This document shows positions 1 to 15,977 of a stretch of DNA of 33,495 nt, piece after piece. The notes under the pieces were generated by a model. That model saw nothing but the letters and a program-made list of their open reading frames with translations. It made no database searches and was not told the origin of the DNA. The translations under genes and the position numbers were made by a program. Position 1 is the stretch's first letter, and each line of letters begins with the position of its first letter. The stretch is from an uncultured Persicitalea sp. (GTDB taxonomy: Bacteria; Bacteroidota; Bacteroidia; Cytophagales; Spirosomataceae), in contig CATMVR010000003.1 of assembly GCA_950075905.1 (NCBI GenBank), positions 1 through 33,495 of the forward strand, written 5' to 3'.

Positions 1-969
1 GGAGCGGTGGTGGCGACGGCGTCGTCGCTGCTGGGGACGGTCGTGACCGCGCTCGCCGGGGACCCGGGAGCCGCGGGCGGGCCGGGTGTCTCGGGGGCCG
101 GCCTGGCGGAGCGGCTGCTTCCGGCTCTGGTCCGTGACCCGGACCGGGCACCCGCGCCGGCAACGGCCGGACACGTCCGCGCCGCGCTGGTCCTGCTCGC
201 CGACCACGGCCTGGCGTCGTCGACGGTCGCGGCCCGGGTCGCCGCGAGCACCCTGGCCGACGTGCAGGCGCTGCTGATCCGCAACCGGGCCGAGACGGCG
301 TCCTTGCGGGAGCAGCTCCGCGCCATCACCAACAGCCCCGTGCTTCTCTTGCCGGACAGCAGCGGCGCGCTGCGGCGCGACCTTGCGGCGGCCCTGGCGG
401 ACACGGCAGGAATTTCGTCCAACCCCTACCTGCGGCTCGCCCGGCAGGAGCTCCTCATCGCGAGCCGGTCCACGGACCTGGAAAAAACGACCCTGCTTCC
501 CCAGTTCAAAGTGGGGTACCTCAACCAGTCGCTGATCGGCGATTACCGCCGCAACGGTGCGGACGTGTTCTATGGGGCGGGCAAACGCTTCCACAGCGTC
601 GAGGCGGGGCTGGCCATACCCATTTTCCGGGGCGCGTTTAAAGCGCGGATCGAGGCGGGCAGGATCAGCGAGGAACTCGCCCGCAATCAACTGGCCGTGG
701 CGGAGATTCAACTCGGCACCCAACTGAGGCAGGCGGTGCGTGCTTACCAGGCCACCGAACAGAGCCTGACTCTGTACGAGGAGCAGAACCTGCCTCTGGC
801 TGGGGAGATCCGGGCGAAAGCCACTCTGGCCTACGAGGCGGGTGAGATCGGCTATCTCGAGTTCGCCCAGGCCCTCAACCGGGCGCTGGACATTCAGTCG
901 CGGTACCTGGACCTGCTCGATGAACACAACCGGGTCGTCATCGAAATAGAATTCCTGCTGGGCCAGTGA
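1..969 (+). CDS. CzcC/TolC-like outer membrane efflux factor, C-terminal part; N-terminal ~85 codons are foreign (citrate synthase-like), so the 5' end is chimeric
   Basis: From about codon 86 the ORF is a coiled-coil OMF (AVEIQLGTQLRQAVRAYQATEQSLTLYEEQNLPLAGEIRAKATLAYEAGEIGYLEFAQALNRAL). It is followed directly by a CzcB-like gene. Codons 1-85 contain ALVLLADHGLASSTVAARVAASTLAD, typical of citrate synthase. Confidence 0.75.
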   Translation, partial: GAVVATASSLLGTVVTALAGDPGAAGGPGVSGAGLAERLLPALVRDPDRAPAPATAGHVRAALVLLADHGLASSTVAARVAASTLADVQALLIRNRAETASLREQLRAITNSPVLLLPDSSGALRRDLAAALADTAGISSNPYLRLARQELLIASRSTDLEKTTLLPQFKVGYLNQSLIGDYRRNGADVFYGAGKRFHSVEAGLAIPIFRGAFKARIEAGRISEELARNQLAVAEIQLGTQLRQAVRAYQATEQSLTLYEEQNLPLAGEIRAKATLAYEAGEIGYLEFAQALNRALDIQSRYLDLLDEHNRVVIEIEFLLGQ

Positions 970-1017
970 CCAGCCCGCGCATACACCCCATTTTTTATAC
1001 ATAAAGACAAGAACCAA

Positions 1018-2193
1018 ATGAAAAACCTACTGATTATCCTGGCCCTGCTGGCGGGCCTTTTCGCCTGTGACAATACCCCGACGACGGAAGTCGAGGGCGG
1101 GGAGGCCACCTCAGCACCCCATGAGGAGGGGGACGAAAACCGGGTCGAGCTGACCAAAGCGCAGTACGAGACGGCGGGGATCGCCACCGGCCTGGTGACG
1201 GAGCGCAGCCTGAGCGGCACGGTGGTGGCCAACGGCGTCATCGACACTCCCCCCCAGAACCTGGTCAGCATTTCGGCCCCTTACGGCGGCTTCGTCCGCA
1301 GCACCGACCTGCTGCAGGGCAAGCGGGTGCGGAAAGGGCAGGTGGTGGCCACCATCGAGAACCCCGACCTCATCAAGATGCAGCAGGACTACCTCGAGAC
1401 GGCCAGCCAACTGGAATACGCCGAACTCGAACTCGCCCGCCAGACCGAACTGAGCCGCGAGAACGTCAACGCCCGCAAGGTGCTGCAGCAGGCCACGGCG
1501 GACGCCAAGACCCAGAAAGCCCGGCTGGCGGGATTGAAGGGGCGGCTGCAAATCGCCGGCATTAGCCCCAAGTCGTTCGCCGACGGCAACCTGGTGACCC
1601 GATTCCCGGTCGTTTCGCCCATCAGCGGGTCGGTGACGGTGGTCAACGTCAACCTGGGCATGTACGTCAACCCGACCGATGTCATGTTCGAGATCGTGGA
1701 CACGGAGCATTTGCACGTGGAAATTTCCGTGTTTGAGGACGACGTTCCGAAAATAAAGATCGGCCAGACCATCCGCTTCACGCTCAGCAACGATCCGGCG
1801 AAACAGCACCTGGCCAAGGTGTACCTGATCAACCAGAAAATAAACGAGGACCGCACCGTCAGGATCCACGGCCACCTCGACCACGACGACCACGGCATGC
1901 TGCCCAACAACTTCGTGCGGGCCGTGATCGAGACTGGTGCCAGCCCGGTGCCCGCCCTGCCGGAGGAGGCGATCGTGGACTTCGAGGGCAGGCCCTACAT
2001 CTTCGTCCGGGCCGATTCCGCCGAAAGCCGCACCTTCGAGATGGTGGAGGTGGCCCGGGGCGTGACGGAAAACGGCTACGCGCAGGTGACGCTGCCGAAG
2101 GATTTCGACCGAAGCCGTGAAGTTGTAATGAAGGGAGCTTACGCCCTGCTGTCGAAACTTAAAAATTCGGAGGAGGAGGGGGAAGGCCACTGA
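1018..2193 (+). CDS. Efflux RND transporter periplasmic adaptor subunit (CzcB/CusB-type lipoprotein)
   Basis: Lipoprotein signal MKNLLIILALLAGLFAC; barrel-sandwich and hairpin architecture (SISAPYGGFVRSTDLLQGKRVRKGQVVATIENPDLIKMQQDYLE; VVSPISGSVTVVNVNLGMYVNPTDVMFEIVD). Confidence 0.9.
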   Translation: MKNLLIILALLAGLFACDNTPTTEVEGGEATSAPHEEGDENRVELTKAQYETAGIATGLVTERSLSGTVVANGVIDTPPQNLVSISAPYGGFVRSTDLLQGKRVRKGQVVATIENPDLIKMQQDYLETASQLEYAELELARQTELSRENVNARKVLQQATADAKTQKARLAGLKGRLQIAGISPKSFADGNLVTRFPVVSPISGSVTVVNVNLGMYVNPTDVMFEIVDTEHLHVEISVFEDDVPKIKIGQTIRFTLSNDPAKQHLAKVYLINQKINEDRTVRIHGHLDHDDHGMLPNNFVRAVIETGASPVPALPEEAIVDFEGRPYIFVRADSAESRTFEMVEVARGVTENGYAQVTLPKDFDRSREVVMKGAYALLSKLKNSEEEGEGH

Positions 2194-2202
2194 CAATGAC
2201 CC

Positions 2203-2823
2203 ATGGAACAAATCATTCTGGGCGGCATCGTCCTCAGCTTCATCCACGCGGTAATCCCCAGCCACTGGCTGCCCTTCGTCACGATTGGCAACGCCCGGGG
2301 CTGGGACCGGGCGACCCTATTGCGAACCACTTTCCTGGCGGGTACCGCCCACACGCTGAGCACCACGATTTTCGGCCTGCTGGTCAGCTACGCGGGGTTC
2401 CAGCTCACCGGCAGCCAGCAACTGATCGCCGGGCGAATTGTCCCGCTGCTGCTGCTGATCCTCGGGCTGTGGTTCGTCATGCAGCATTACCTGGGCCACT
2501 CCCACACCCATCTGGAAGCGGGGAATGCAAGGGGCAGAAGCCACCGACGGCTGCTGCTGTCGCTGGTGGTCGTCATGTTCTTTTCGCCCTGTTTCGAGAT
2601 CAGCGCTTATTTCCTCAGCGCGGGGACGATGGGCTGGCGCGCCGTGGCCGTGTTGGCGGCCTTATACAATGTCCTCACCCTGGCCGGCATGCTCGCAATG
2701 GTCGGGCTGGGACAGCGGGGGCTGGAGAAGCTGGACATCGGCTGGCTGCGGCACAACGAGCAACTCATCACCGGGATGACGCTCTGCGGGCTGGCGACCT
2801 TTAATTTTTTCACTGAATTTTAA
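2203..2823 (+). CDS. Polytopic membrane protein, UreH/TauE-SafE/NicO-like putative metal transporter
   Basis: Hydrophobic helices; IVLSFIHAVIPSHWLPFVTIG...AGTAHTLSTTIFGLLVS; His loop HSHTHLEAGN; in operon between CzcB and a Zn/Cd ATPase. Confidence 0.6.
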   Translation: MEQIILGGIVLSFIHAVIPSHWLPFVTIGNARGWDRATLLRTTFLAGTAHTLSTTIFGLLVSYAGFQLTGSQQLIAGRIVPLLLLILGLWFVMQHYLGHSHTHLEAGNARGRSHRRLLLSLVVVMFFSPCFEISAYFLSAGTMGWRAVAVLAALYNVLTLAGMLAMVGLGQRGLEKLDIGWLRHNEQLITGMTLCGLATFNFFTEF

Positions 2824-2838
2824 GAAACCCAATAAACC

Positions 2839-4746
2839 ATGACACAAAAACCAGTAAAAAAACACGATTCCCACCGCCACGGGGGCGAGGCCAGCGACTG
2901 GCTCACCCACTGGCCATTGCTGCTGTCGTTGCTCATCCTGGCGGTGATGCTCACCGCCGAATACGGCTTCGGGGCCGTGCCCGGCGAACTGCCGCGCCTG
3001 GCAATTTACCTTACCGCTTACTTATTGGCAGGTCACAAGGTGCTGGACTTGGCCTTTAGGAAGGCCAGGCGACTCGACATATTCAACGAGTTCTTCCTGA
3101 TGAGCGTGGCCACCCTCGGCGCGTTCGCCATCGGGGAGTACAGCGAAGGCGTGGCGGTCATGGTGTTCTACGCCATCGGCGAGTGGTTCCAGGACGCCGC
3201 CGTGAACCGGGCCAAGCGAAGCATCAAGGCCCTGCTCGACATCCGGCCCGACACCGTGGATGTGATCCGTCAGGGCAGGGTGCAGACGGTGGAACCCTCC
3301 GAAGTCGAGATAGGCGAGGCCATCCAGGTGAAGCCCGGCGAGAAGGTGGCGCTGGACGGTGAGCTGCTGTCCGAGCGGGCCACCTTCAACACAGCCGCCC
3401 TGACGGGTGAGAGCAAACCCGATTCCAAAGAAAAGGGCGAGCAGGTGCTGGCCGGGATGATCAACCTGAACACCGTGGCCGAGGTGAAAGTCCGCGCCCT
3501 GTTCCGCGACAGCAAGCTCAGCCGCATCCTGGAAATGGTGCAGGACGCCACGGCCCGCAAGTCCCGCACCCAGCTTTTCATCTCCCGGTTCGCCAAAGTT
3601 TACACGCCCATCGTGTTTGCGCTGGCTGTCCTGCTGGTGGTGCTGCCCTACTTCTTCGTTTCCGACTACGTCTTCCGGGACTGGCTCTACCGGGGCCTGG
3701 TCTTTCTGGTGATAAGCTGCCCCTGCGCCCTGGTGGTCTCGATCCCGCTGGGTTACTTCGGGGGCATCGGGTTGGCTTCGAAGAACGGCATCCTGTTCAA
3801 GGGTTCCAACTTCCTCGACGTGATGACGGGAGTGGACACGGTGGTCATGGACAAGACCGGAACCCTCACCAAAGGGGTGTTCAACGTGCAGGAAATGGTG
3901 GCCGACGGCATTGACGAAAAGGAACTGGTCAGGCTCACCGCCGCCATTGAGAGCAAGTCTACTCACCCGATTGCGCTGGCCGTCACCCGTTACGCCGGGA
4001 ATAGACCGGAAGGGGCCGATGTAGGGGACGTGGAGGAAGTGCCGGGCCACGGCTTGAAAGGAACCGTGGACGGCAGGGAGGTGCTGGCCGGAAACACCAG
4101 GCTGCTGCGCAAGTTTGGGGTGAAGTACGACGGGGCCATCGACCGGGAGGCCGATACGGTGGTGGTCGTAGCGGTGGACGGGCGGTATGCGGGCTACATC
4201 CTCATTTCTGACGAGATCAAGGAAGATGCGAAACAAACGGTCGAACAACTCAGTGAAATGGGCATCAGGTCGGTCATGCTGAGCGGCGACAAGCAGAGCG
4301 TGGTGGAGAAGGTGGCCCGCACGGTCGGGGTGGACGAGGCCTTCGGCGACTTGCTGCCCGAGGACAAGGTGAAAAAGGTCGAGGTGCTGAAAAACGAGGG
4401 GAGGCACATCGCCTTTGTCGGCGACGGGGTCAACGACGCCCCGGTGATCGCCCTGGCCGACGCCGGGATTGCCATGGGCGGCCTGGGCAGCGACGCCACC
4501 ATCGAGACGGCGGACATCGTCATCCAGAACGACCAGCCCGCCAAAATCGTGACAGCCATTAAAATTGGCAAGATCACCAAGGGCATCGTGTGGCAGAACA
4601 TCGGACTGGCGATGGGAGTGAAGGTGATTGTGCTGCTGCTGGGGGCAGGCGGCGTGGCCACACTCTGGGAGGCCGTCATCGCCGATGTCGGCGTGGCCCT
4701 GCTGGCCATTATGAACGCGGTCAGGATCCAGAGGAAATCGGTCTGA
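2839..4746 (+). CDS. Heavy-metal translocating P-type ATPase, P1B-2 (Zn/Cd/Pb) type
   Basis: ISCPCALVVSIPLGYFGGIG (CPC), DKTGTLTKG, GDGVNDAPVIALADAGIAMG, TM8 DVGVALLAIMNAVRI. No N-terminal GMTCxxC domain. Confidence 0.93.
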   Translation: MTQKPVKKHDSHRHGGEASDWLTHWPLLLSLLILAVMLTAEYGFGAVPGELPRLAIYLTAYLLAGHKVLDLAFRKARRLDIFNEFFLMSVATLGAFAIGEYSEGVAVMVFYAIGEWFQDAAVNRAKRSIKALLDIRPDTVDVIRQGRVQTVEPSEVEIGEAIQVKPGEKVALDGELLSERATFNTAALTGESKPDSKEKGEQVLAGMINLNTVAEVKVRALFRDSKLSRILEMVQDATARKSRTQLFISRFAKVYTPIVFALAVLLVVLPYFFVSDYVFRDWLYRGLVFLVISCPCALVVSIPLGYFGGIGLASKNGILFKGSNFLDVMTGVDTVVMDKTGTLTKGVFNVQEMVADGIDEKELVRLTAAIESKSTHPIALAVTRYAGNRPEGADVGDVEEVPGHGLKGTVDGREVLAGNTRLLRKFGVKYDGAIDREADTVVVVAVDGRYAGYILISDEIKEDAKQTVEQLSEMGIRSVMLSGDKQSVVEKVARTVGVDEAFGDLLPEDKVKKVEVLKNEGRHIAFVGDGVNDAPVIALADAGIAMGGLGSDATIETADIVIQNDQPAKIVTAIKIGKITKGIVWQNIGLAMGVKVIVLLLGAGGVATLWEAVIADVGVALLAIMNAVRIQRKSV

Positions 4747-4770
4747 AACATCCGGTCTTCCGGCACCCCC

Positions 4771-4941
4771 ATGATTGAAAAAGGGGAAATACATTTTATA
4801 GATTACAAACCGTTCGGCGTGAGCCGGGAGTACGAGCAATTCCGTCCCTGGAAGTCGGTGGAAAAGTCCATGAAGACAGTCGAATTCGAGGAACTGTACC
4901 TGGGGGCTGCCTACCGCTGCACGGGTGAAAGAAGACCCTGA
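4771..4941 (+). CDS. Short hypothetical ORF (56 aa), possibly truncated
   Basis: ATG at 4771: MIEKGEIHFIDYKPFGVSREYEQFRPWKSVEKSMKTVEFEELYLGAAYRCTGERRP*. Not in the ORF track (length cutoff) and not recognised. Confidence 0.35.
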   Translation: MIEKGEIHFIDYKPFGVSREYEQFRPWKSVEKSMKTVEFEELYLGAAYRCTGERRP

Positions 4942-5049
4942 ATCGTCAGGCCTGGCAGGGTGACGATGGTAGCTACCCACAGCTCCAAGCAGTTTTCTCT
5001 GCTGGACACGCAGGTCATCATTGGCGGGCAGTATTCACCTACAAAAAAG

Positions 5050-6312
5050 TTAGAAATAAGTAGAGAAGCCAACCTGAAAGGTGGCCGTGCGGGCGGGCGG
5101 GTTGCCCAGTATATCGGTGTCCCACTGGTAGCGGTAGTTGGCCCGAATCACCGTGGTGGGCGACGGACGGAAACTAATGGCGGGTACAACGGACCAGATT
5201 TCATCGTAGATGTTTTCATTCGTTTCGTTGAATGTGCCTACGTTATAGTCCACACGCTCTAAGCGGGCCGCCACGTTCAGTGTGGCCGTGTTCCAGCCCA
5301 GCATCCGGCCCCGCAGCACCGGCTGCACCACATCAAGCCAGCCCCCCTGCTGACGACGGCCAAACTGCTGTGAATAGGTGGAAGGTACATCTACCCGCGC
5401 CCAGACAAACTCGCCATTAAGATACGTGCGCGAGCCGGGCAGCACCGTATTGAAATCCACCGCCCATACATCGACCCGCCTACGCTGATCCAGAACCAGG
5501 CCGTCGTCCCGAAATTTATTGTACACGCCCCCCATCCACGACAAACCAATTTCCCCGAATTTGCGCCGTTTTACGGCTGCTTTCAGCGTAACCAGAGGCA
5601 CCCCGTTGAAACTCTCCTCGAATCGGTTGGGGTTGACCTTGGCTGCGGGCAGGAACGTCCGGTTTTGCGTATTGGCGATGATTGAATTGTCAAAGCCGTT
5701 GGTCAGGTAACCTTCGTAGGCAAATACCCAGTTGCGGGTGTATTTTTTTCCGTATAGCCCAAATCCCACGTTACTGAAGGTGGAGGGAATAATACGGGTG
5801 GATGAGAGGGGCCGGTCAACGAATTCCCATTTGGGGCCGTCGTGATTCTGGTTGAACGAGCCAATCGGATTCATCACGATGCCGGTACGCAGGTTGAGCA
5901 GGGAGTTGAACTGGAAATCGACCGAGGCAAATTCGATATTGATTTCTTTGGTACCGTCTTCAAACTCGATTTCGGTCAAAAACTTGATGCGCCGGTTGAT
6001 GGTCGCGGCCATGAAAATCGTCATCCGGGGCATTTGAAACGACAGCCCCTCACTAACCCCGTCGGTATTTGCGTACTGCGTGTTGGCTTCTACATAGCCC
6101 CCTATTGAAATGGGCAGTTTGCCGGTCCGCAGAAAGGGGCGGTTGTAAGCGGCATCGAGGTTCATCTTTTCGTCTTTGGGCGTATGCAGCGTCGTATCCC
6201 GGCCAAACAGCGCATCCATTTTGGCATTGCTGGTCGTATCGACCGCGACCGGAACCTGACCAAAGACCGATGTGGCGACCAGCAGGCATACGGGTAAAAG
6301 TTTGTTTCGCAT
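5050..6312 (-). CDS. Outer-membrane porin (Bacteroidota phosphate-selective porin O/P-like)
   Basis: Signal peptide MRNKLLPVCLLVATSVFG; beta-barrel pattern (ISIGGYVEANTQYANTDG, SFQMPRMTIFMAATINRRIKFLTEIEFEDG, NYRYQWDTDI) ending in a terminal F. Confidence 0.82.
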   Translation of the reverse strand: MRNKLLPVCLLVATSVFGQVPVAVDTTSNAKMDALFGRDTTLHTPKDEKMNLDAAYNRPFLRTGKLPISIGGYVEANTQYANTDGVSEGLSFQMPRMTIFMAATINRRIKFLTEIEFEDGTKEINIEFASVDFQFNSLLNLRTGIVMNPIGSFNQNHDGPKWEFVDRPLSSTRIIPSTFSNVGFGLYGKKYTRNWVFAYEGYLTNGFDNSIIANTQNRTFLPAAKVNPNRFEESFNGVPLVTLKAAVKRRKFGEIGLSWMGGVYNKFRDDGLVLDQRRRVDVWAVDFNTVLPGSRTYLNGEFVWARVDVPSTYSQQFGRRQQGGWLDVVQPVLRGRMLGWNTATLNVAARLERVDYNVGTFNETNENIYDEIWSVVPAISFRPSPTTVIRANYRYQWDTDILGNPPARTATFQVGFSTYF

Positions 6313-6317
6313 ATAAG

Positions 6318-6779
6318 TCAGGCGATAAGGATGTAAATTTTCTGGTCATCAGCCGTTACGCGGTAGGCTGTGAGGTCCCGGTCGGCGGGGCCTTCCGTTA
6401 CGTGGCCCTGCGCATCGTATTCACTACCGTGGGCCGGGCAGGTGAGAAAGCCCTCGTGGGCGTTCAGCTCGTTGCCCTGGTGCGAACACTTCATCAATAC
6501 AGCCGTGAAGGCGTCGCCCGTGCGGTGCAGATAAATAGGAAAGGTCTGACCCGGCAGCTCCACCAGCACGTAGTTGCGCAGCGTGGTCACTCCCTTTTTG
6601 CTCACCTGCTCGAATTCGCTCCGGCTGAGTTCAATGGTTTTCCCTTTTAAGACGGGCTTCTGTGCGTAGTACACGCTTCTGCAACTGCTCACCAGCACCG
6701 GAAGCCCCGCTGCTGCCAGGCAAACGGCTCCGCAGGTCTTCAAAAATGTTTGCCGGTCGAGTTTATCTGGTGTCCTCAT
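6318..6779 (-). CDS. Rieske [2Fe-2S] domain protein, exported
   Basis: CSHQGNELNAHEGFLTCPAHGSEYDAQGHVTEGPA matches the Rieske CxH...CxxH pattern; N-terminal signal/lipobox-like segment. Confidence 0.88.
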   Translation of the reverse strand: MRTPDKLDRQTFLKTCGAVCLAAAGLPVLVSSCRSVYYAQKPVLKGKTIELSRSEFEQVSKKGVTTLRNYVLVELPGQTFPIYLHRTGDAFTAVLMKCSHQGNELNAHEGFLTCPAHGSEYDAQGHVTEGPADRDLTAYRVTADDQKIYILIA

Positions 6780-6790
6780 GAAGAATAGGC

Positions 6791-7990
6791 TTAGAGTGAT
6801 TTAAGAAATGCAATGACATCAGCTTGACTGGCAGCGGGCATTTCCTCGAAACGCTTTTGAATGCTGGCAGCCTCACCACCGTGCATCCTGATGGCTTCCC
6901 TAATACTGCGTGCCCGTCCGTCGTGCATAAGATACACCTGCCCGCCCTGCGAATTTTGGGCCAGCCCCAGCCCCCACAGCGGGGGAGTACGCCACTCGGC
7001 TCCGCCAGCGGAGCCTTCCGTGTAGCCATCGTCCAGGCCCGGCCCCATGTTGTGCAGGAGCAGGTCTGTGTAGGGATGAAATTCGGTGTTGGCCAAGGCA
7101 GCCACGGGCGAGTATCCCGTTTTCAGCGTTTGTTTGTGGCAGCTTTCACAACCTGTTTGCACGAACAACTGCTGGCCTCTCAATACGGCAGGGTCATCAG
7201 GGTTGCGCTGGATGGGTGCTTTTAGCGTTTGCAAGTAGAAGACTACATCCCGCACTTTCCTGTCCGATACTTCGGGATCGATGGATTTGAGCGTGTACAC
7301 GTCACTCGGATCAAAAGTCGACGTGATGCCCATGTCCTGGTTGTAGGCTACCACCGTCTGATGAAACAGGTTGTAAACACTGCCTTTTTTACCAAAGCGC
7401 GTTATATACCGATCTCCCTGCCGCCTGCTGTTCGGGCGGGGCGTAACGTAGCCGGGCAACAGGTTCCAGTTTGGGTGTCCCCGCACCCCATCGGGGTTCT
7501 TGGCGTTGGCAGCGGCCATACCCAGAATATCTTCGTCGCTTACCAGTTCAAGGTAGCCCAGCCCGGAGTTGCTGGGCGGGGTAAACTTAGCAAAGGGAGT
7601 TCCTTCGGGCAGTTGCTCAGGTTCATAGCCCGGAATGGCCCGGTTCTGTATTTGAAACCCGTGGTCGAACTCGTTTTGACCCAAGCTATCGGTGTGGCCA
7701 AAGCGAATCAACGTGGTAAAGGGATGTCCTTTACCATCACCAGGGTGGCAACTGCCGCAGCTATTGGCCACGAACACCGGCCCAAGTCCCGTCTCAGGCG
7801 TGAATATTTCATCGTTGAAGGCAATGTCACCAGCCAGGTGCCGGGCCGATTGCGCCGGGGTAAGTCCTGCTACCGGACCATCGAGTAGTTCGTCTTCCCT
7901 GGGGGCGGTGGGACCCATTTCCTTGCAGGCAATAATGGCAAAGACAAACGACGCGACACTAAGTAGAAATGAAAGAGTAGTTTTTCTCAA
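6791..7990 (-). CDS. Di-heme oxidoreductase (DUF1111/DHOR) family cytochrome
   Basis: Two CxxCH motifs (CGSCH, CESCH); TTLIRFGHTDSLGQNEFDHGFQIQNRAIPGYEPE and TPPLWGLGLAQNSQGGQVYLMHDGRARSIREAI typical of DUF1111. Confidence 0.88.
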   Translation of the reverse strand: MRKTTLSFLLSVASFVFAIIACKEMGPTAPREDELLDGPVAGLTPAQSARHLAGDIAFNDEIFTPETGLGPVFVANSCGSCHPGDGKGHPFTTLIRFGHTDSLGQNEFDHGFQIQNRAIPGYEPEQLPEGTPFAKFTPPSNSGLGYLELVSDEDILGMAAANAKNPDGVRGHPNWNLLPGYVTPRPNSRRQGDRYITRFGKKGSVYNLFHQTVVAYNQDMGITSTFDPSDVYTLKSIDPEVSDRKVRDVVFYLQTLKAPIQRNPDDPAVLRGQQLFVQTGCESCHKQTLKTGYSPVAALANTEFHPYTDLLLHNMGPGLDDGYTEGSAGGAEWRTPPLWGLGLAQNSQGGQVYLMHDGRARSIREAIRMHGGEAASIQKRFEEMPAASQADVIAFLKSL

Positions 7991-8091
7991 AATAAACTGA
8001 TCGTATGTGGTTGAATGCCAATGGTTAAATAGGGTAAGATTAACAGCGGGGTTAACGAAACCATCAGCAAATGTAGCAAGAATATTTATAA

Positions 8092-8109
8092 TCTAAATAT
8101 AATTTTAGA
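8092..8109. promoter_or_regulatory. Candidate operator: TCTAAA-TATAAT-TTTAGA inverted repeat upstream of the DHOR-Rieske-porin unit
   Basis: Perfect 6-bp inverted repeat with 6-bp spacer in an AT-rich intergenic region. A minus-strand TACATTTG (8075-8068) fits the Bacteroidota -7 box TAnnTTTG just downstream. Confidence 0.5.
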
Positions 8110-8222
8110 CTAGCCAAAAAAATAATCAGAACTTGATAGAAAATTATTTTCGACTTGCCGATTTATTCTACTGCCATATTGAGCCCATCGTCTGGCAAAA
8201 CAAGAAGTTCAGAGGTAACAAC

Positions 8223-8259
8223 AAAACACCCCGCAACCTGTGGGATTGCGGGGTGTTTT
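8223..8259. terminator. Bidirectional intrinsic terminator-like hairpin
   Basis: Perfect 14-bp stem AAAACACCCCGCAA / TTGCGGGGTGTTTT with a 9-nt loop, downstream of the CDF gene. Confidence 0.8.
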
Positions 8260-8319
8260 TGGCCTACCCTACGGGCTGGTTGCGGTGTTCAGGCGAGATC
8301 GGCAGATGACGGCTGGCGT

Positions 8320-9369
8320 TTACAGCTTATGCTGTTCCATTTCCGCCTGGACGATGGCCCGCTCCAGAGCCTCCTCCCTGCTGCAGTTCGTCCGGGCGTG
8401 GCGGTCCTCAGCCAAGCGCAGCACCTTGTTGCGGACACCGTCCTCCAGCGGGTCGAGCCGGTGTGCCTGGTTCTCGAAGAGTTTTTCAACGTACCGGGTG
8501 AACTCCTCGAAGTCGATGGTAACGTGTTCCGTGTCCAGATCCCCGAAAACACCCAGAATCTCCTGCCTGAGGGCTTTCTGTCGGGCCGGGGTCAGATCCC
8601 CGGTCTTAACATGGAGGGTGACCACCAGTTTCTTCTGGGTCAGCCCCCAGACGTGGAAGTGGCGGATTAGCTCCACCCCGTCCAGGCACAGCACCTTTTG
8701 CTCAAGCAGAGGCACGTTCACGCCTTCCGGCACCCTTTGAAGAAAAATCTTCACCACATCGACCAATTTGAACGAGATCATGACCAGCACCGCCAGGTTG
8801 ATGACAATGGCCAGGATGGGGTCGAGGATGGGCAGTTCCTTGAACAGCAGGATAATGCTGACGGCCAGTACCGCCAGCCAGCCGAGCGAATCCTCCAGCA
8901 GGTGGATGGTCATGACCTGCTTGTTGAGGGATTTGCCTGATCTGAGTTTCCAGACCCCGATTCCGTTCAGGACGATGCCCAGCACGGCGATTCCGATCAT
9001 CCACGGCACGTCGGGCATCTGCGGGTCAAGGATGCGCCGGATGCTGGCGTAGAATATGTAAACGGCCCCCAGCACCAGCACGAGTGCGTTCACCAGGGCA
9101 CCCAAAAGGGAAAAACGCTGATAGCCGTAGGTGTACCGCTCGTTGCTTTTTTCCTTTTCGGCTTTATGCTCGAAGTACCAGCCCAGCCCCAGGGAGAGGC
9201 TGTCGGCGAAATCGTGCAGCGAGTCGGCGATGATGGCGATGCTCCCGGAGATCAGCCCCCCGGCCAGTTCCAGCACGGTGAAGGCCAGGTTAAGGAAAAA
9301 GGCCGTTTTGGTGCTGCTGCTTTTATTGTCTTTCGGCATCGGGTTTAGTGCGGGTTGTGAAAATAACAA
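8320..9369 (-). CDS. Cation diffusion facilitator (CDF) family transporter
   Basis: FLNLAFTVLELAGGLISGSIAIIADSLHDFADSLSLGLGWYFEHKAEK...YTYGYQRFSLLGALVNALVL is a CzcD/ZitB-like CDF core. The true start may be the internal MPKDNK. Confidence 0.92.
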   Translation of the reverse strand: MLFSQPALNPMPKDNKSSSTKTAFFLNLAFTVLELAGGLISGSIAIIADSLHDFADSLSLGLGWYFEHKAEKEKSNERYTYGYQRFSLLGALVNALVLVLGAVYIFYASIRRILDPQMPDVPWMIGIAVLGIVLNGIGVWKLRSGKSLNKQVMTIHLLEDSLGWLAVLAVSIILLFKELPILDPILAIVINLAVLVMISFKLVDVVKIFLQRVPEGVNVPLLEQKVLCLDGVELIRHFHVWGLTQKKLVVTLHVKTGDLTPARQKALRQEILGVFGDLDTEHVTIDFEEFTRYVEKLFENQAHRLDPLEDGVRNKVLRLAEDRHARTNCSREEALERAIVQAEMEQHKL

Positions 9370-9393
9370 TCAGCGGTTTCAGGCTCCTCATTC

Positions 9394-11910
9394 CTATTTC
9401 TTGTAAGCCAACAACCTGAGGGCGTTGAAGACCACTAGCAGGGTTGAGCCTTCGTGAACGACCACCGCGATGCCGATATTGGCCACGCCCAGGATCGTCG
9501 CCGGGATGAGCATGGCCACGATGCCCAGGCTCACCCACAGGTTCTGCCGGATAATGGCCCGCGCCTTCCGGCTGAGGCCGATGGCGAAGGGCAGCGTTTC
9601 GAGCTTGTCGGCCATCAGGGCGATGTCGGCGGTTTCCAGGGCCACGTCCGACCCGGCGGCTCCCATCGCAATGCCCACCGTGCTGTTGGCCATTGCGGGG
9701 GCGTCGTTGACCCCGTCGCCGACCATCGCCACCTTGGCTTCTTCCTCTTTGAGCTTTTTGATCGCATCCACCTTTTCTTCCGGCAGCAGGCTGCCCCAGG
9801 CGTCGGTCAGGCCGATCTCTTTGGCTACGGCGTCGGCGACCTTCTGGTTGTCGCCCGTGAGCATGATCATCCGGCGGATGCCCAACTCTTTCAACTCGGC
9901 CAGCGTATCCTTGGCTTCCGGGCGGGGCGTGTCCATCAGGGCTAGCGCGCCGATGTAGTCGTCGTTGCGCCGGATGAGCATGGTCGTCTGCCCCGCCGCT
10001 TCCAGGCCACGTATCTTCTGCTCGACCTCCGGCGACGGCTTTTTGTCGTCCAGGGTTTCGAATAGTTCCAGGTTGCCGATGTAAATTTTATCCTGCCCCA
10101 GTGTGGCCTTGATTCCCTTGCCCTGCACGGCTTCCAGATTTTTGGCCTCGGGGATACTGGTTTCTGGCAGGCGTTCCTTCCCGTCGCGCACCACGGCTTT
10201 GGCCAGCGGGTGGTCGCTCAGGTTTTCGACGGCCACCGCTGTTTTGATCAGGTCGTCCTCCGTCACTTCGCCAAAAGGCACCACTTCGGTGAGTTTGGGT
10301 TTGCCCTCGGTCAGGGTGCCGGTTTTGTCGAAGGCCAGGGCCTTCAGCACGCCCAGGTCTTCCAGGGGGCGACCACCCTTGATCAGAACGCCGCCCCGGG
10401 CGGCCCGCGCTACGCCGCTCAGCACCGCGCTGGGCGTCGAGATCGCCAGGGCGCACGGGCTGGCCGCCACCAGCACGGCCATCGCCCGGTAGAAACTGGT
10501 GCTGAACGGCTCGTCCATTACCAGGAAGGCCAGATTGAGGAGGGCGACCAGCCCCAGCACCGACGGGACGAAGTACCTCTCGAACTTGTCGGTGAAGCGC
10601 TGGGTGGGCGATTTCTGGGTCTGGGCTTCGTTGACCAGCCTCACCAGCCGCGAGAGCGTGGAGTCGCTGGCAGCCTTGATGACTTTCACTTCCAGGGTGT
10701 TGTTGCCGTTGATCGTCCCGGCGAACACCCGGTTTTCGTCTTTGATATCGTCCTGGGCTGTGTATTCTTTGGCCGGGTCGGCCACGGCGGTTTTGTCCAC
10801 CGGGACGCTTTCACCCGTGATGGGGGCCTGGTTGACGCTGGAACTGCCGTCCACCACCACGCCGTCGGCGGAGATTTTGCTGTTGGGCTTCACCACGATG
10901 ATATCGCCCACGGCCAGGGTCTCGATGCCTACCTCTTCGGTTCTGCCGTCCTTTTTCAGCAGAGCCGTTTTGGGGGCCAGGTTGGCCAGGGCGGCGATGG
11001 ACTTGCGGGCCCTGCCCATTGCGTAGTTTTCCAAAGCATGCCCCAGGCTGAACAGGAACAGTAGCAGGGCCCCTTCGGCCCACTCGCCCAGAATGGCCGC
11101 CCCGATGGCGGCCACCAGCATCAGGAAGTCGATCTCGAAGCCCCCCGCCCGGATCGTTTCGACGGCCTCCTTTGCCGTGAAGTACCCGCCGAAGCCGTAA
11201 GCCCCGACGTACAGCGCCAGACTAACCCAGGCGGGTACCGAGTCCACGTACGAAAGTCCGAAACCTACGCCCAGCAGCGCGCCGCAGATGAGCGAAAAGT
11301 AGAGTTCCGTATTCTTACCCAGAAATCCGCCGTGATCGTGATCGTGGCCATCGCCCTCGCTGTGCTCGTGTGCCTCGTCCTCATCATGGTCGTGTCCGTC
11401 GCCTTCCTTGTGAACGTGGTCGGCGGATTCCGCGAGGGTGGTTTTCTGGGTATCGGCTGTTTCTTCGTCTGTTACCAGCAAACCTTCATCCCGCAGCAGT
11501 TGCCGAACGGCCGCGACGCTGGTGACCGTTTTGTCGAATTCGATCCGCACCGGGCCGGAGGCCGAAACGGAAACGTCCAGCAGGCCCCCGTGCCTGCGCA
11601 GTCTACGCTCGATTTGCCGGGCGTGGCGGGTGTGCCGTACGCCTTCTACTCCCACCAACAGGTGGCCGAAATCGCGGGTGAGGTCTTCACCCTCCTGCTG
11701 CGCGATCGAGCGGATGCGGTCCATTGAGATAACGCCGGGATCGTAGTGAAAGCAAAGCTGTGGACCCTGCCCGTCTTTGCCTTCGGCTACGTGCGCTTTC
11801 TGAATGGCTTCCTGCTGCTCCATCCGGTGGATGAGCCGGGTCACGCACGCGTCCTTTTCGTCAGGTACCCCGGGCAGGACGACGGGGATTTGCATCTTAA
11901 TCTTTTCCAT
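9394..11910 (-). CDS. P1B-4-type metal P-type ATPase with a Cys-poor N-terminal domain and His-rich linker
   Basis: VAASPCALAISTPSAVLSG (SPC), DKTGTLTEGKP, MVGDGVNDAPAMANSTVGIAMG, VVHEGSTLLVVFNALRLL (HEGST). N-terminal linker HVHKEGDGHDHDEDEAHEHSEGDGHDHDHGG. Confidence 0.92.
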   Translation of the reverse strand: MEKIKMQIPVVLPGVPDEKDACVTRLIHRMEQQEAIQKAHVAEGKDGQGPQLCFHYDPGVISMDRIRSIAQQEGEDLTRDFGHLLVGVEGVRHTRHARQIERRLRRHGGLLDVSVSASGPVRIEFDKTVTSVAAVRQLLRDEGLLVTDEETADTQKTTLAESADHVHKEGDGHDHDEDEAHEHSEGDGHDHDHGGFLGKNTELYFSLICGALLGVGFGLSYVDSVPAWVSLALYVGAYGFGGYFTAKEAVETIRAGGFEIDFLMLVAAIGAAILGEWAEGALLLFLFSLGHALENYAMGRARKSIAALANLAPKTALLKKDGRTEEVGIETLAVGDIIVVKPNSKISADGVVVDGSSSVNQAPITGESVPVDKTAVADPAKEYTAQDDIKDENRVFAGTINGNNTLEVKVIKAASDSTLSRLVRLVNEAQTQKSPTQRFTDKFERYFVPSVLGLVALLNLAFLVMDEPFSTSFYRAMAVLVAASPCALAISTPSAVLSGVARAARGGVLIKGGRPLEDLGVLKALAFDKTGTLTEGKPKLTEVVPFGEVTEDDLIKTAVAVENLSDHPLAKAVVRDGKERLPETSIPEAKNLEAVQGKGIKATLGQDKIYIGNLELFETLDDKKPSPEVEQKIRGLEAAGQTTMLIRRNDDYIGALALMDTPRPEAKDTLAELKELGIRRMIMLTGDNQKVADAVAKEIGLTDAWGSLLPEEKVDAIKKLKEEEAKVAMVGDGVNDAPAMANSTVGIAMGAAGSDVALETADIALMADKLETLPFAIGLSRKARAIIRQNLWVSLGIVAMLIPATILGVANIGIAVVVHEGSTLLVVFNALRLLAYKK

Positions 11911-11994
11911 ATGTATATATATACGATTAGGTCTTTTTTATAATGATTGAATTGTCTTTTCCCTTCCAAAGCGGAAGAACAATGGGGGCGGCGG

Positions 11995-12726
11995 TTAGCC
12001 CGGCAGCAGCATGAACAGCAGAAACCCGGCGAAGAAGGCCGCCGTGATCAGCGGTGACTGGCTACTCTCGTGTGCCTCTACGAGCAGTTCCTCGGTGACC
12101 AGGAAAAGCAACGCCGCCAAACCGAAGGAAAGCACGATTTCCAGGTAGGCGTCCGGGATGCCCCCCAGCAGCCACGCACTCAGCACGGCGCTGACGAAGA
12201 CGAGCAGGGCGAGTCCCACCAGGCACAGCACGGCGGTTCTAGTGGTCACCCTCCGGCTTCCCAGTGAGGTGGCGGTGGCCATGCCCAGCGCGGCCAGCTC
12301 GATGGAAATGGCAACCGCCAGCAATGTGCCGGTTTCCGTGCCGGATATGAACCCGATCCCCATGATTACGCCGTCCACCAGCAGATCGACGACGATGATG
12401 GCGATGAGCGCGGTGGGAAATCCCCCGCCGTCGGGGGCTTCTTCGGCGGGTTCAAGGAAGTACCGCAGGGCCAGCATCAGCACCACGCCCGCCCCGAAGC
12501 CGACGACGATCTCCCACACGACGTGCCGCTCCATGATGTCGGGCAGAAGCTCGACGGCCACCACCGAGAAGATCACGCCCGCCGCGAAGTGCAGGATGAC
12601 GCTCCTCATGCGGAGGCCCGGCTTTCTCAGGATGGCTACAATGCCACCTGCCAGTAGGGCAGTGGCGGCTATTGAGGCGTAATTCGCTACGCTCGAAAGG
12701 TTTTCCACGCCTGAAGGGTTGGGCAT
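11995..12726 (-). CDS. ZIP-family-like metal transporter
   Basis: About 8 hydrophobic helices; LHFAAGVIFSVVAVELLPDIM and LLVDGVIMGIGFISGTETGTLLAVAISIELAALGMATATSL resemble the ZIP TM IV-V region. Confidence 0.75.
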   Translation of the reverse strand: MPNPSGVENLSSVANYASIAATALLAGGIVAILRKPGLRMRSVILHFAAGVIFSVVAVELLPDIMERHVVWEIVVGFGAGVVLMLALRYFLEPAEEAPDGGGFPTALIAIIVVDLLVDGVIMGIGFISGTETGTLLAVAISIELAALGMATATSLGSRRVTTRTAVLCLVGLALLVFVSAVLSAWLLGGIPDAYLEIVLSFGLAALLFLVTEELLVEAHESSQSPLITAAFFAGFLLFMLLPG

Positions 12727-12729
12727 TAT

Positions 12730-13095
12730 GTTTAGAGAAACTACTACGATACTTTGGGTTTAAGAAACGGTCGATATATTCCTGACCAGGGTACAAATAT
12801 TGTTCCATAAGCGCTTCGACGATAGCCATCTTAAGTGAATTATTCGGCAAAATCTCTGTAAAGGAAGAAGGCCCACACAACCCACTCGTCTACAATGAAA
12901 ACCAATCCAAACCGGTTTTGCTCTTTCGAAGATTCTTATAATTCGGCCTTTTGTTTAGCATCTAGGACAACCTGAGACGGAATGAATTTGATGACCAGGT
13001 AAATGGCAATTTGCAGGAGAACCAAGTAGTTCAGCAAACCCAGCACGGTTTGAATTTCAGTCGCGTGGCGCGGTAGAAAAGCCTTCTTTGCCAGG
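12730..13095 (-). pseudogene. Unidentified gene remnants
   Basis: Several coding-looking minus-strand fragments without proper starts: FLAKKAFLPRHATEIQTVLGLLNYLVLLQIAIYLVIKFIPSQVVLDAKQKAEL*, RFGLVFIVDEWVVWAFFLYRDFAE*, MAIVEALMEQYLYPGQEYIDRFLNPKYRSSFSKHN. Confidence 0.35.
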
Positions 13096-15343: not shown

Positions 15344-15577
15344 GTTGATTAAAATCCCCTAGCGAACATCCCGAGTTATCGGCTGTTTGAACCCCAATTT
15401 CTCACAATCTTCGCCAGCCAAGATCGGTTTTATTCCCTATCTTAACAATTATCACCAAACATACGAGAACCCATTAAGAAAATGGTTGTAAAGTGTTATC
15501 AAACCGGATTTGTCAAATCTAAAGAGTTCGAATCATTTGTCTTTTTAACAGGAACTAATTAAAAGAATTTTGGGTAC

Positions 15578-15611: not shown

Positions 15612-15977
15612 ATGAAAAAAAGTGAATGCATACGAGTAGTAGCTGACCGAAACCAATTAAACCAATGCAAACTTGAGCTAGTCATTGCCGAAACGGAAAT
15701 TCGGGCTTTATCAGACATTTTGAGCTTAGCCGGAAATGAGGTCCGGCTGAAGATACTGTATCTACTTAATCAGGAAGGGCAGATGTGCCCCTGTGATCTC
15801 AGTGATGTACTGGACATGAGCATGCCGGCGATATCGCAGCACCTGCGCAAAATGAAGGATAAAGATTTAATCCGTTATAAAAAAGTAGGACAGACCATCT
15901 TTTATTCTCTGAACGAAGACCTTTCCGATTTGCTGAATCTTCTTTTTAAACGACTCAAAAAAACACAACTAGTTTAG
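15612..15977 (+). CDS. ArsR-family metalloregulator
   Basis: LAGNEVRLKILYLLNQEGQMCPCDLSDVLDMSMPAISQHLRKMKDKDLIRYKKVGQTIFYSL winged HTH, with a CxC-D motif in alpha-3. Confidence 0.92.
   Translation: MKKSECIRVVADRNQLNQCKLELVIAETEIRALSDILSLAGNEVRLKILYLLNQEGQMCPCDLSDVLDMSMPAISQHLRKMKDKDLIRYKKVGQTIFYSLNEDLSDLLNLLFKRLKKTQLV

Follow-up and report, generated by a model that had tools for sequence, protein, structure and literature searches.

A conserved DHOR-Rieske-porin operon of Bacteroidota with a putative DtxR/MntR-type control site, a candidate module for manganese acquisition

Which metal, and what kind of redox chemistry, might be served by an operon that places a di-heme cytochrome and a Rieske protein next to an outer-membrane porin? 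The cytochrome belongs to the DHOR (DUF1111) family, which is otherwise known from iron operons and for which, to our knowledge, no activity has been settled. The triad studied here lies in a contig of an uncultured Persicitalea sp. (CATMVR010000003.1); 'the window' below means the whole stretch of 33,495 nucleotides that was analysed. All three genes are on the minus strand, separated by gaps of 5 and 11 bp, and these positions and gaps match exactly those given in the first-pass annotation, which had been made from the letters alone. The features of the locus are:

5050–6312, minus strand: porin gene; 420 aa, outer-membrane porin with a predicted 16-strand barrel.
6318–6779, minus strand: Rieske gene; 153 aa, [2Fe-2S] lipoprotein, Pfam PF00355, alignment of 37 sequences.
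6791–7990, minus strand: DHOR (DUF1111) gene; 399 aa from a TTG start, di-heme lipoprotein, Pfam PF06537.
8068–8075, minus strand: −7 promoter element TACATTTG of Bacteroidota type (TAnnTTTG), seen in the sequence.
8092–8097, minus strand: TTTAGA (TCTAAA on the plus strand) in the −33 region, the left arm of a dyad noted earlier, seen in the sequence.
8104–8119, unstranded: DtxR/MntR-type operator TTTAGACTAGCCAAAA, found with a de novo motif at 16.5 bits; putative control site.

The DHOR product matches PF06537 at 3e-58 (198 bits against a cut-off of 22) and has two CxxCH heme motifs, Cys78/81-His82 and Cys281/284-His285, together with a lipobox cysteine at position 22. Both CxxCH motifs and the lipobox cysteine are invariant across 52 homologues, as are Met315, His313, His356 and His370, which are candidate ligands. 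MauG and bacterial di-heme peroxidases are among the top fold matches, although weakly (E 0.008–0.02, low TM), and PDB sequence searches with DHOR and with the porin gave no useful relative. The Rieske protein matches PF00355 at 3e-9, with a lipobox at Cys33 and cluster ligands in the arrangement CSH...CPAH. Its signal is Tat-like, reading DRQTFLK in the window and RR/RK-x-FIK in homologues; as Gln occupies the position of the second arginine in the window, we regard Tat export of this member as probable. It shares the Rieske domain and the CxH...CxxH ligands with the Rieske proteins of bc1 and b6f complexes, but differs from them in being a Tat-type lipoprotein and in that the bc1-type disulfide cysteines are missing from most members of the alignment of 37. 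Assignment as a bc1/b6f Rieske subunit was rejected, with a score of 37.8 bits against a cut-off of 250 and an operon that holds no cytochrome b gene. The porin gene product has no Pfam match of its own, and 19 of 50 homologues show a weak match to BBP2. AlphaFold predicts a barrel of 16 strands for it (pLDDT 86), with OprP/OprO as the nearest structures, and the loop between strands 5 and 6, the region where porins usually have their constriction site, carries the near-invariant motif NPIGxFNQNHDGPxWEFxDRP.

Is the triad a unit, or an accident of this stretch? Among 148 relatives, a full-length DHOR of the triad type is present as 18 copies in 16 genomes, and a Rieske homologue adjoins it in all 18; a seventeenth genome (G106) has a DHOR fragment alone, with no adjoining Rieske. 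When 85,462 species genomes were scanned, 251 relatives emerged, and the best 80 of these 251, which were kept, are by their record titles all from Bacteroidota or Ignavibacteria and range from Chitinophagaceae through Flavobacterium. The loci of these 80, others from Spirosomaceae and further relatives, and the window itself make up a set of 97, two of which (L095 and L143) come from one genome. Throughout this Bacteroidota-wide set the order DHOR-Rieske-porin is constant and tightly packed, often with a 4-bp overlap of the Rieske and porin genes, and both order and spacing are kept in about 95 Bacteroidota loci. Rieske is found in 94 of the 97, being absent only from L119, L138 and the truncated L158, and the porin is missing only at contig ends (L073, L087, L088 and L100) and in L158. 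Since L119 and L138 manage without it, the Rieske protein may be dispensable. A second, independent sample covered 145 genomes of the class, and of the 22 loci fetched from it, 21 held the complete triad. Rhabdobacter roseus DSM 105074, Pedobacter sp. PLR and Flavobacterium terrigena DSM 17934 are examples of cultured environmental strains that have it. The neighbourhood survey suggested in the first-pass annotation thus finds the triad far outside the window, and lack of conservation, which had been named there as grounds for refutation, does not refute it.

What, then, switches the operon on? The promoter element TACATTTG fits TAnnTTTG, the −7 consensus of Bacteroidota. Upstream of it the bases of the earlier dyad are present as described (8092–8109: TCTAAA at 8092–8097, TATAAT, and TTTAGA at 8104–8109), and the left arm falls where the −33 region is expected from TACATTTG. 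As an operator, this dyad is not by itself above chance, at least one perfect 6-bp dyad occurring in 58% of dinucleotide shuffles of the AT-rich stretch. A de novo palindrome search over 43 regulator/DHOR intergenic regions yielded ATTAG[AG][CT]WW[AG][CT]CTAAT, which is the DtxR box, and the window promoter carries this 14-bp palindrome: TTTAGACTAGCCAAAA at 8104–8119 is the top-scoring DtxR-type site of the whole window at 16.5 bits, a score reached in 2 of 5000 shuffles. The box overlaps the dyad through the right arm only, the dyad consisting of one arm of the DtxR box and another half-site. Loci that have no adjoining regulator were left out of motif discovery; ahead of DHOR, 31 of these 45 have a box of at least 13 bits, as do 11 of 1100 control upstreams. 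A strong box is absent from four Spirosomaceae triads (L146–L149) and from about ten other loci. Because a scan of five genomes with the box pattern hardly exceeded its reversed control, the evidence is restricted to sites between fitting genes, a restriction that is partly post hoc. From its sequence, 8104–8119 is the probable control site of the triad.

The first-pass annotation had taken the dyad for a candidate Fur-like operator. We rejected this, since a Fur-type motif taken from a sister operon gives the window 1.9 bits and the DtxR/MntR motif gives it 16.5 bits; across the triads, the Fur-type 19-bp palindrome reaches at least 13 bits in 1 of 97. The sister operon is found in many Bacteroidota (L250, L254, L255 and L256–L285) with the order porin-Rieske-imelysin-DHOR. 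Partial DHOR matches in the relatives (40–47%, about 460–470 aa) were likewise rejected as triad members, because they form a separate, imelysin-linked family. The sister porin and Rieske are homologous to those of the triad (profile E about 1e-19 and 1e-31), and the porin has NENHLPTTFNxNDRP at the same place in its loop, whilst the Rieske tree keeps the triad and sister kinds apart with 100/100 support. The sister palindrome, ATTTAGAATnATTCTAAAT, has the 9-1-9 symmetry of the Fur type and reaches at least 15 bits in 18 of 23 upstreams when scored with a motif derived from those upstreams; a DtxR box above 9 bits is found in none of the 23. From the form of this palindrome and its link to imelysin we infer binding by Fur. 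No imelysin gene (PF09375) was found in the window operon or among the recurrent neighbours of the triad. The Fur idea fits the sister operon and not the triad, and, judged by their sequences, these two related redox-porin modules appear to be wired to different metals. DUF1111-imelysin operons for iron uptake have been published (PMC3143127), and we found no description of the porin-Rieske-imelysin-DHOR operon in the open-licence papers searched. The DHOR family is common to the imelysin-DUF1111 operons (for example PA4370–PA4373), their Bacteroidota sister and the triad, but the triad differs in its lack of imelysin, in a DHOR of about 400 rather than 465 aa, in its reversed gene order and in having a DtxR/MntR box instead of a Fur-type one, besides the full support for separate Rieske groups.

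Proteins of the DtxR family are able to sense iron as well as manganese, so iron retains some probability as the metal. A DtxR-family gene is present at 48 of 96 loci, in 46 of these directly upstream and divergent; the window's own genome has one regulator homologue, on another contig (G000:C43:9962-10609), with the box TTTAGGTGAGTCTAAA upstream. The nearest solved structures to the regulator are 5zr4 (a metal-dependent regulator, which we take to be mycobacterial MntR), ScaR and SloR. At the position of DtxR Cys102, where Glu is a mark of manganese sensors, the regulator has Glu in 50 of 51 sequences, and Glu104 and His105 are nearly always kept. The box also lies between mntR and a divergent mntH, encoding an NRAMP transporter, in G086 and in the Rhabdobacter genome with the 97%-identical island described below (G023), and the regulator gene is followed directly by mntH at 21 of 30 loci. 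At L231 and L239 an mntH-mntR pair is divergent from the triad; in Hufsiella ginkgonis (L086) mntR-mntH-DHOR-Rieske-porin follow five in a row. On the strength of the regulator's relatives and its Glu, the box at mntH, the mntH genes that follow the regulator and the mntR-mntH pairs beside the triad, we consider manganese the probable metal. Further DtxR-type boxes are upstream of a ZIP transporter gene (L183) and of TonB-receptor/DoxX pairs in the window's own genome (L175) and in G086 (L181), and the TonB receptor at these last two loci is a possible manganese receptor. The window's own genome, which is 82% complete, gave no NRAMP match at E 1e-20. The earlier suggestion of metal-dependent control, with iron as the example, is supported as to control by a metal; the regulator linkage and the presence of the box at mntH favour manganese over iron or copper.

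We consider that the triad is probably a Bacteroidota envelope module for manganese acquisition, repressed through DtxR/MntR when manganese is sufficient and active when it is scarce. A regulator of this family would bind the box and repress the triad at sufficient manganese, and scarcity would relieve the repression. Mn(II) would cross the outer membrane by way of the porin, and MntH, which shares the box where it occurs, would move it across the inner membrane. Next to the porin, DHOR and Rieske would pass electrons along a short chain, the most likely task of which would be to keep or make manganese as Mn(II), for example by reduction of Mn(III)/Mn(IV). Reduction is preferred because Mn(II) is the form accepted by the importer of the inner membrane, and because oxidised manganese could receive electrons from a high-potential Rieske/heme chain. 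More tentatively, and with doubts of our own, such a surface or periplasmic di-heme/Rieske chain with a dedicated porin under MntR might be an assimilatory Mn(III/IV) reductase, of which the Fur-controlled imelysin version would be the counterpart for iron. The broader earlier proposal, a compact envelope operon for redox and metal uptake under metal-dependent control, gains support from the conserved triad, its operator and the regulator linkage.

Could the triad nonetheless acquire iron? An iron-responsive repressor like DtxR or IdeR, both of which sense iron, might control a DHOR/Rieske pair that shifts the redox state of iron and a porin that admits it. DHOR partners imelysin in iron-uptake operons (PMC3143127). 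In Bizionia argentinensis two adjoining locus tags for a cytochrome c and a Rieske protein (BZARG_RS03000/RS03005) go down along with iron- and manganese-uptake genes when a regulator is mutated, and this mutant is low in Fe, Mn and Zn (PMC9478572). The decrease of the pair ranked with the strongest seen in it, and the two genes were interpreted in that study as respiratory parts (PMC9478572); the pair may itself belong to such a triad. Nevertheless, the triad lacks both imelysin and, with the one exception in 97, the Fur-type box that the sister operon has, and its own box is shared with mntH under a regulator that resembles MntR, ScaR and SloR. We therefore regard an iron role as unlikely.

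The genomic setting argues against the manganese reading in another way. Positions 411–13046 of the window (12.6 kb) are 96.9% identical to Rhabdobacter roseus, which the genome grouping used places in a different genus, and most of this segment is 95–98% identical to Persicitalea jodogahamensis; it contains a CzcB-like adaptor, a 206-aa membrane protein, P1B ATPases, the triad, a CDF and a ZIP gene. Given such identity across genera, the triad seems to have moved recently together with a metal-resistance island. Of 96 triads, 45 have a P1B ATPase nearby and 36 an RND pump, and their frequent location in Cd/Zn/Cu resistance islands could mean a resistance role. In that case DHOR might be a di-heme peroxidase, fed by Rieske, that guards the periplasm at times when Cd, Zn or Cu upset manganese, as its weak likeness to MauG and the di-heme peroxidases would allow. 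However, half of the triads adjoin an mntR-type gene, some with mntH, instead of sharing an operon with resistance genes, the top-scoring promoter site is of the DtxR/MntR type, and a porin for which a peroxidase has no need is kept at nearly all loci, so that we find a defence role quite improbable. An outer-membrane electron conduit for energy metabolism (iron or manganese oxidation), as in PioABC, has gene content, the same three kinds of component, as its sole support, as does a respiratory reading or the earlier one of envelope electron transfer, and is very improbable indeed, since two hemes are insufficient to span a membrane, the 16-strand barrel resembles substrate porins, and a manganese-type box suits nutrition over respiration.

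The comparison with known systems can be made more precise. PioABC and other porin-cytochrome systems combine, as the triad does, a cytochrome, a porin and a high-potential iron-sulfur protein, but the triad has two hemes rather than about ten, a substrate-type barrel and a Rieske protein instead of a HiPIP; the multiheme cytochrome threading a large barrel that defines MtrAB/PioAB-type conduits is not seen with two hemes and 16 strands. With the MntR/DtxR regulons (MntR-MntH, ScaR, SloR) the triad shares the regulator family, the 14-bp box and the mntH target, whereas a DHOR-Rieske-porin target of such a regulon was found in none of the open-licence papers searched; nor, among these papers, did we find one that joins DUF1111 with Rieske. 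Outer-membrane porins for manganese are on record as MnoP and OmpU (PMC9334652). MnoP of Bradyrhizobium and OmpU of Vibrio resemble the triad porin in being outer-membrane porins proposed for manganese entry; they differ in lineage, and the triad porin is apparently co-transcribed with two redox lipoproteins.

DHOR/DUF1111 has so far been interpreted through iron and imelysin. A widespread version without imelysin and with a manganese-type switch suggests that the redox-porin core is separable from iron, and provides a candidate path by which manganese could cross the outer membrane of Bacteroidota. The matched pair of operons, one with a Fur-type box and imelysin and the other with an MntR-type box and no imelysin, makes metal specificity testable by comparison. 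Rieske and cytochrome genes like those of the triad are also easily misread as parts of respiratory complex III.

Three smaller observations may be added. The second-best DtxR-type site of the window (15508–15523, 12.5 bits) lies upstream of an ArsR gene at 15612 and may be due to chance. On another contig of the same genome (L175; G000:C210), a box of 16.0 bits at position 2337 lies between the genes for a 755-aa TonB receptor and a DoxX-like protein. Finally, a further Persicitalea locus (L067) has a near-identical DHOR in two pieces with stops between them, next to intact Rieske and porin frames.
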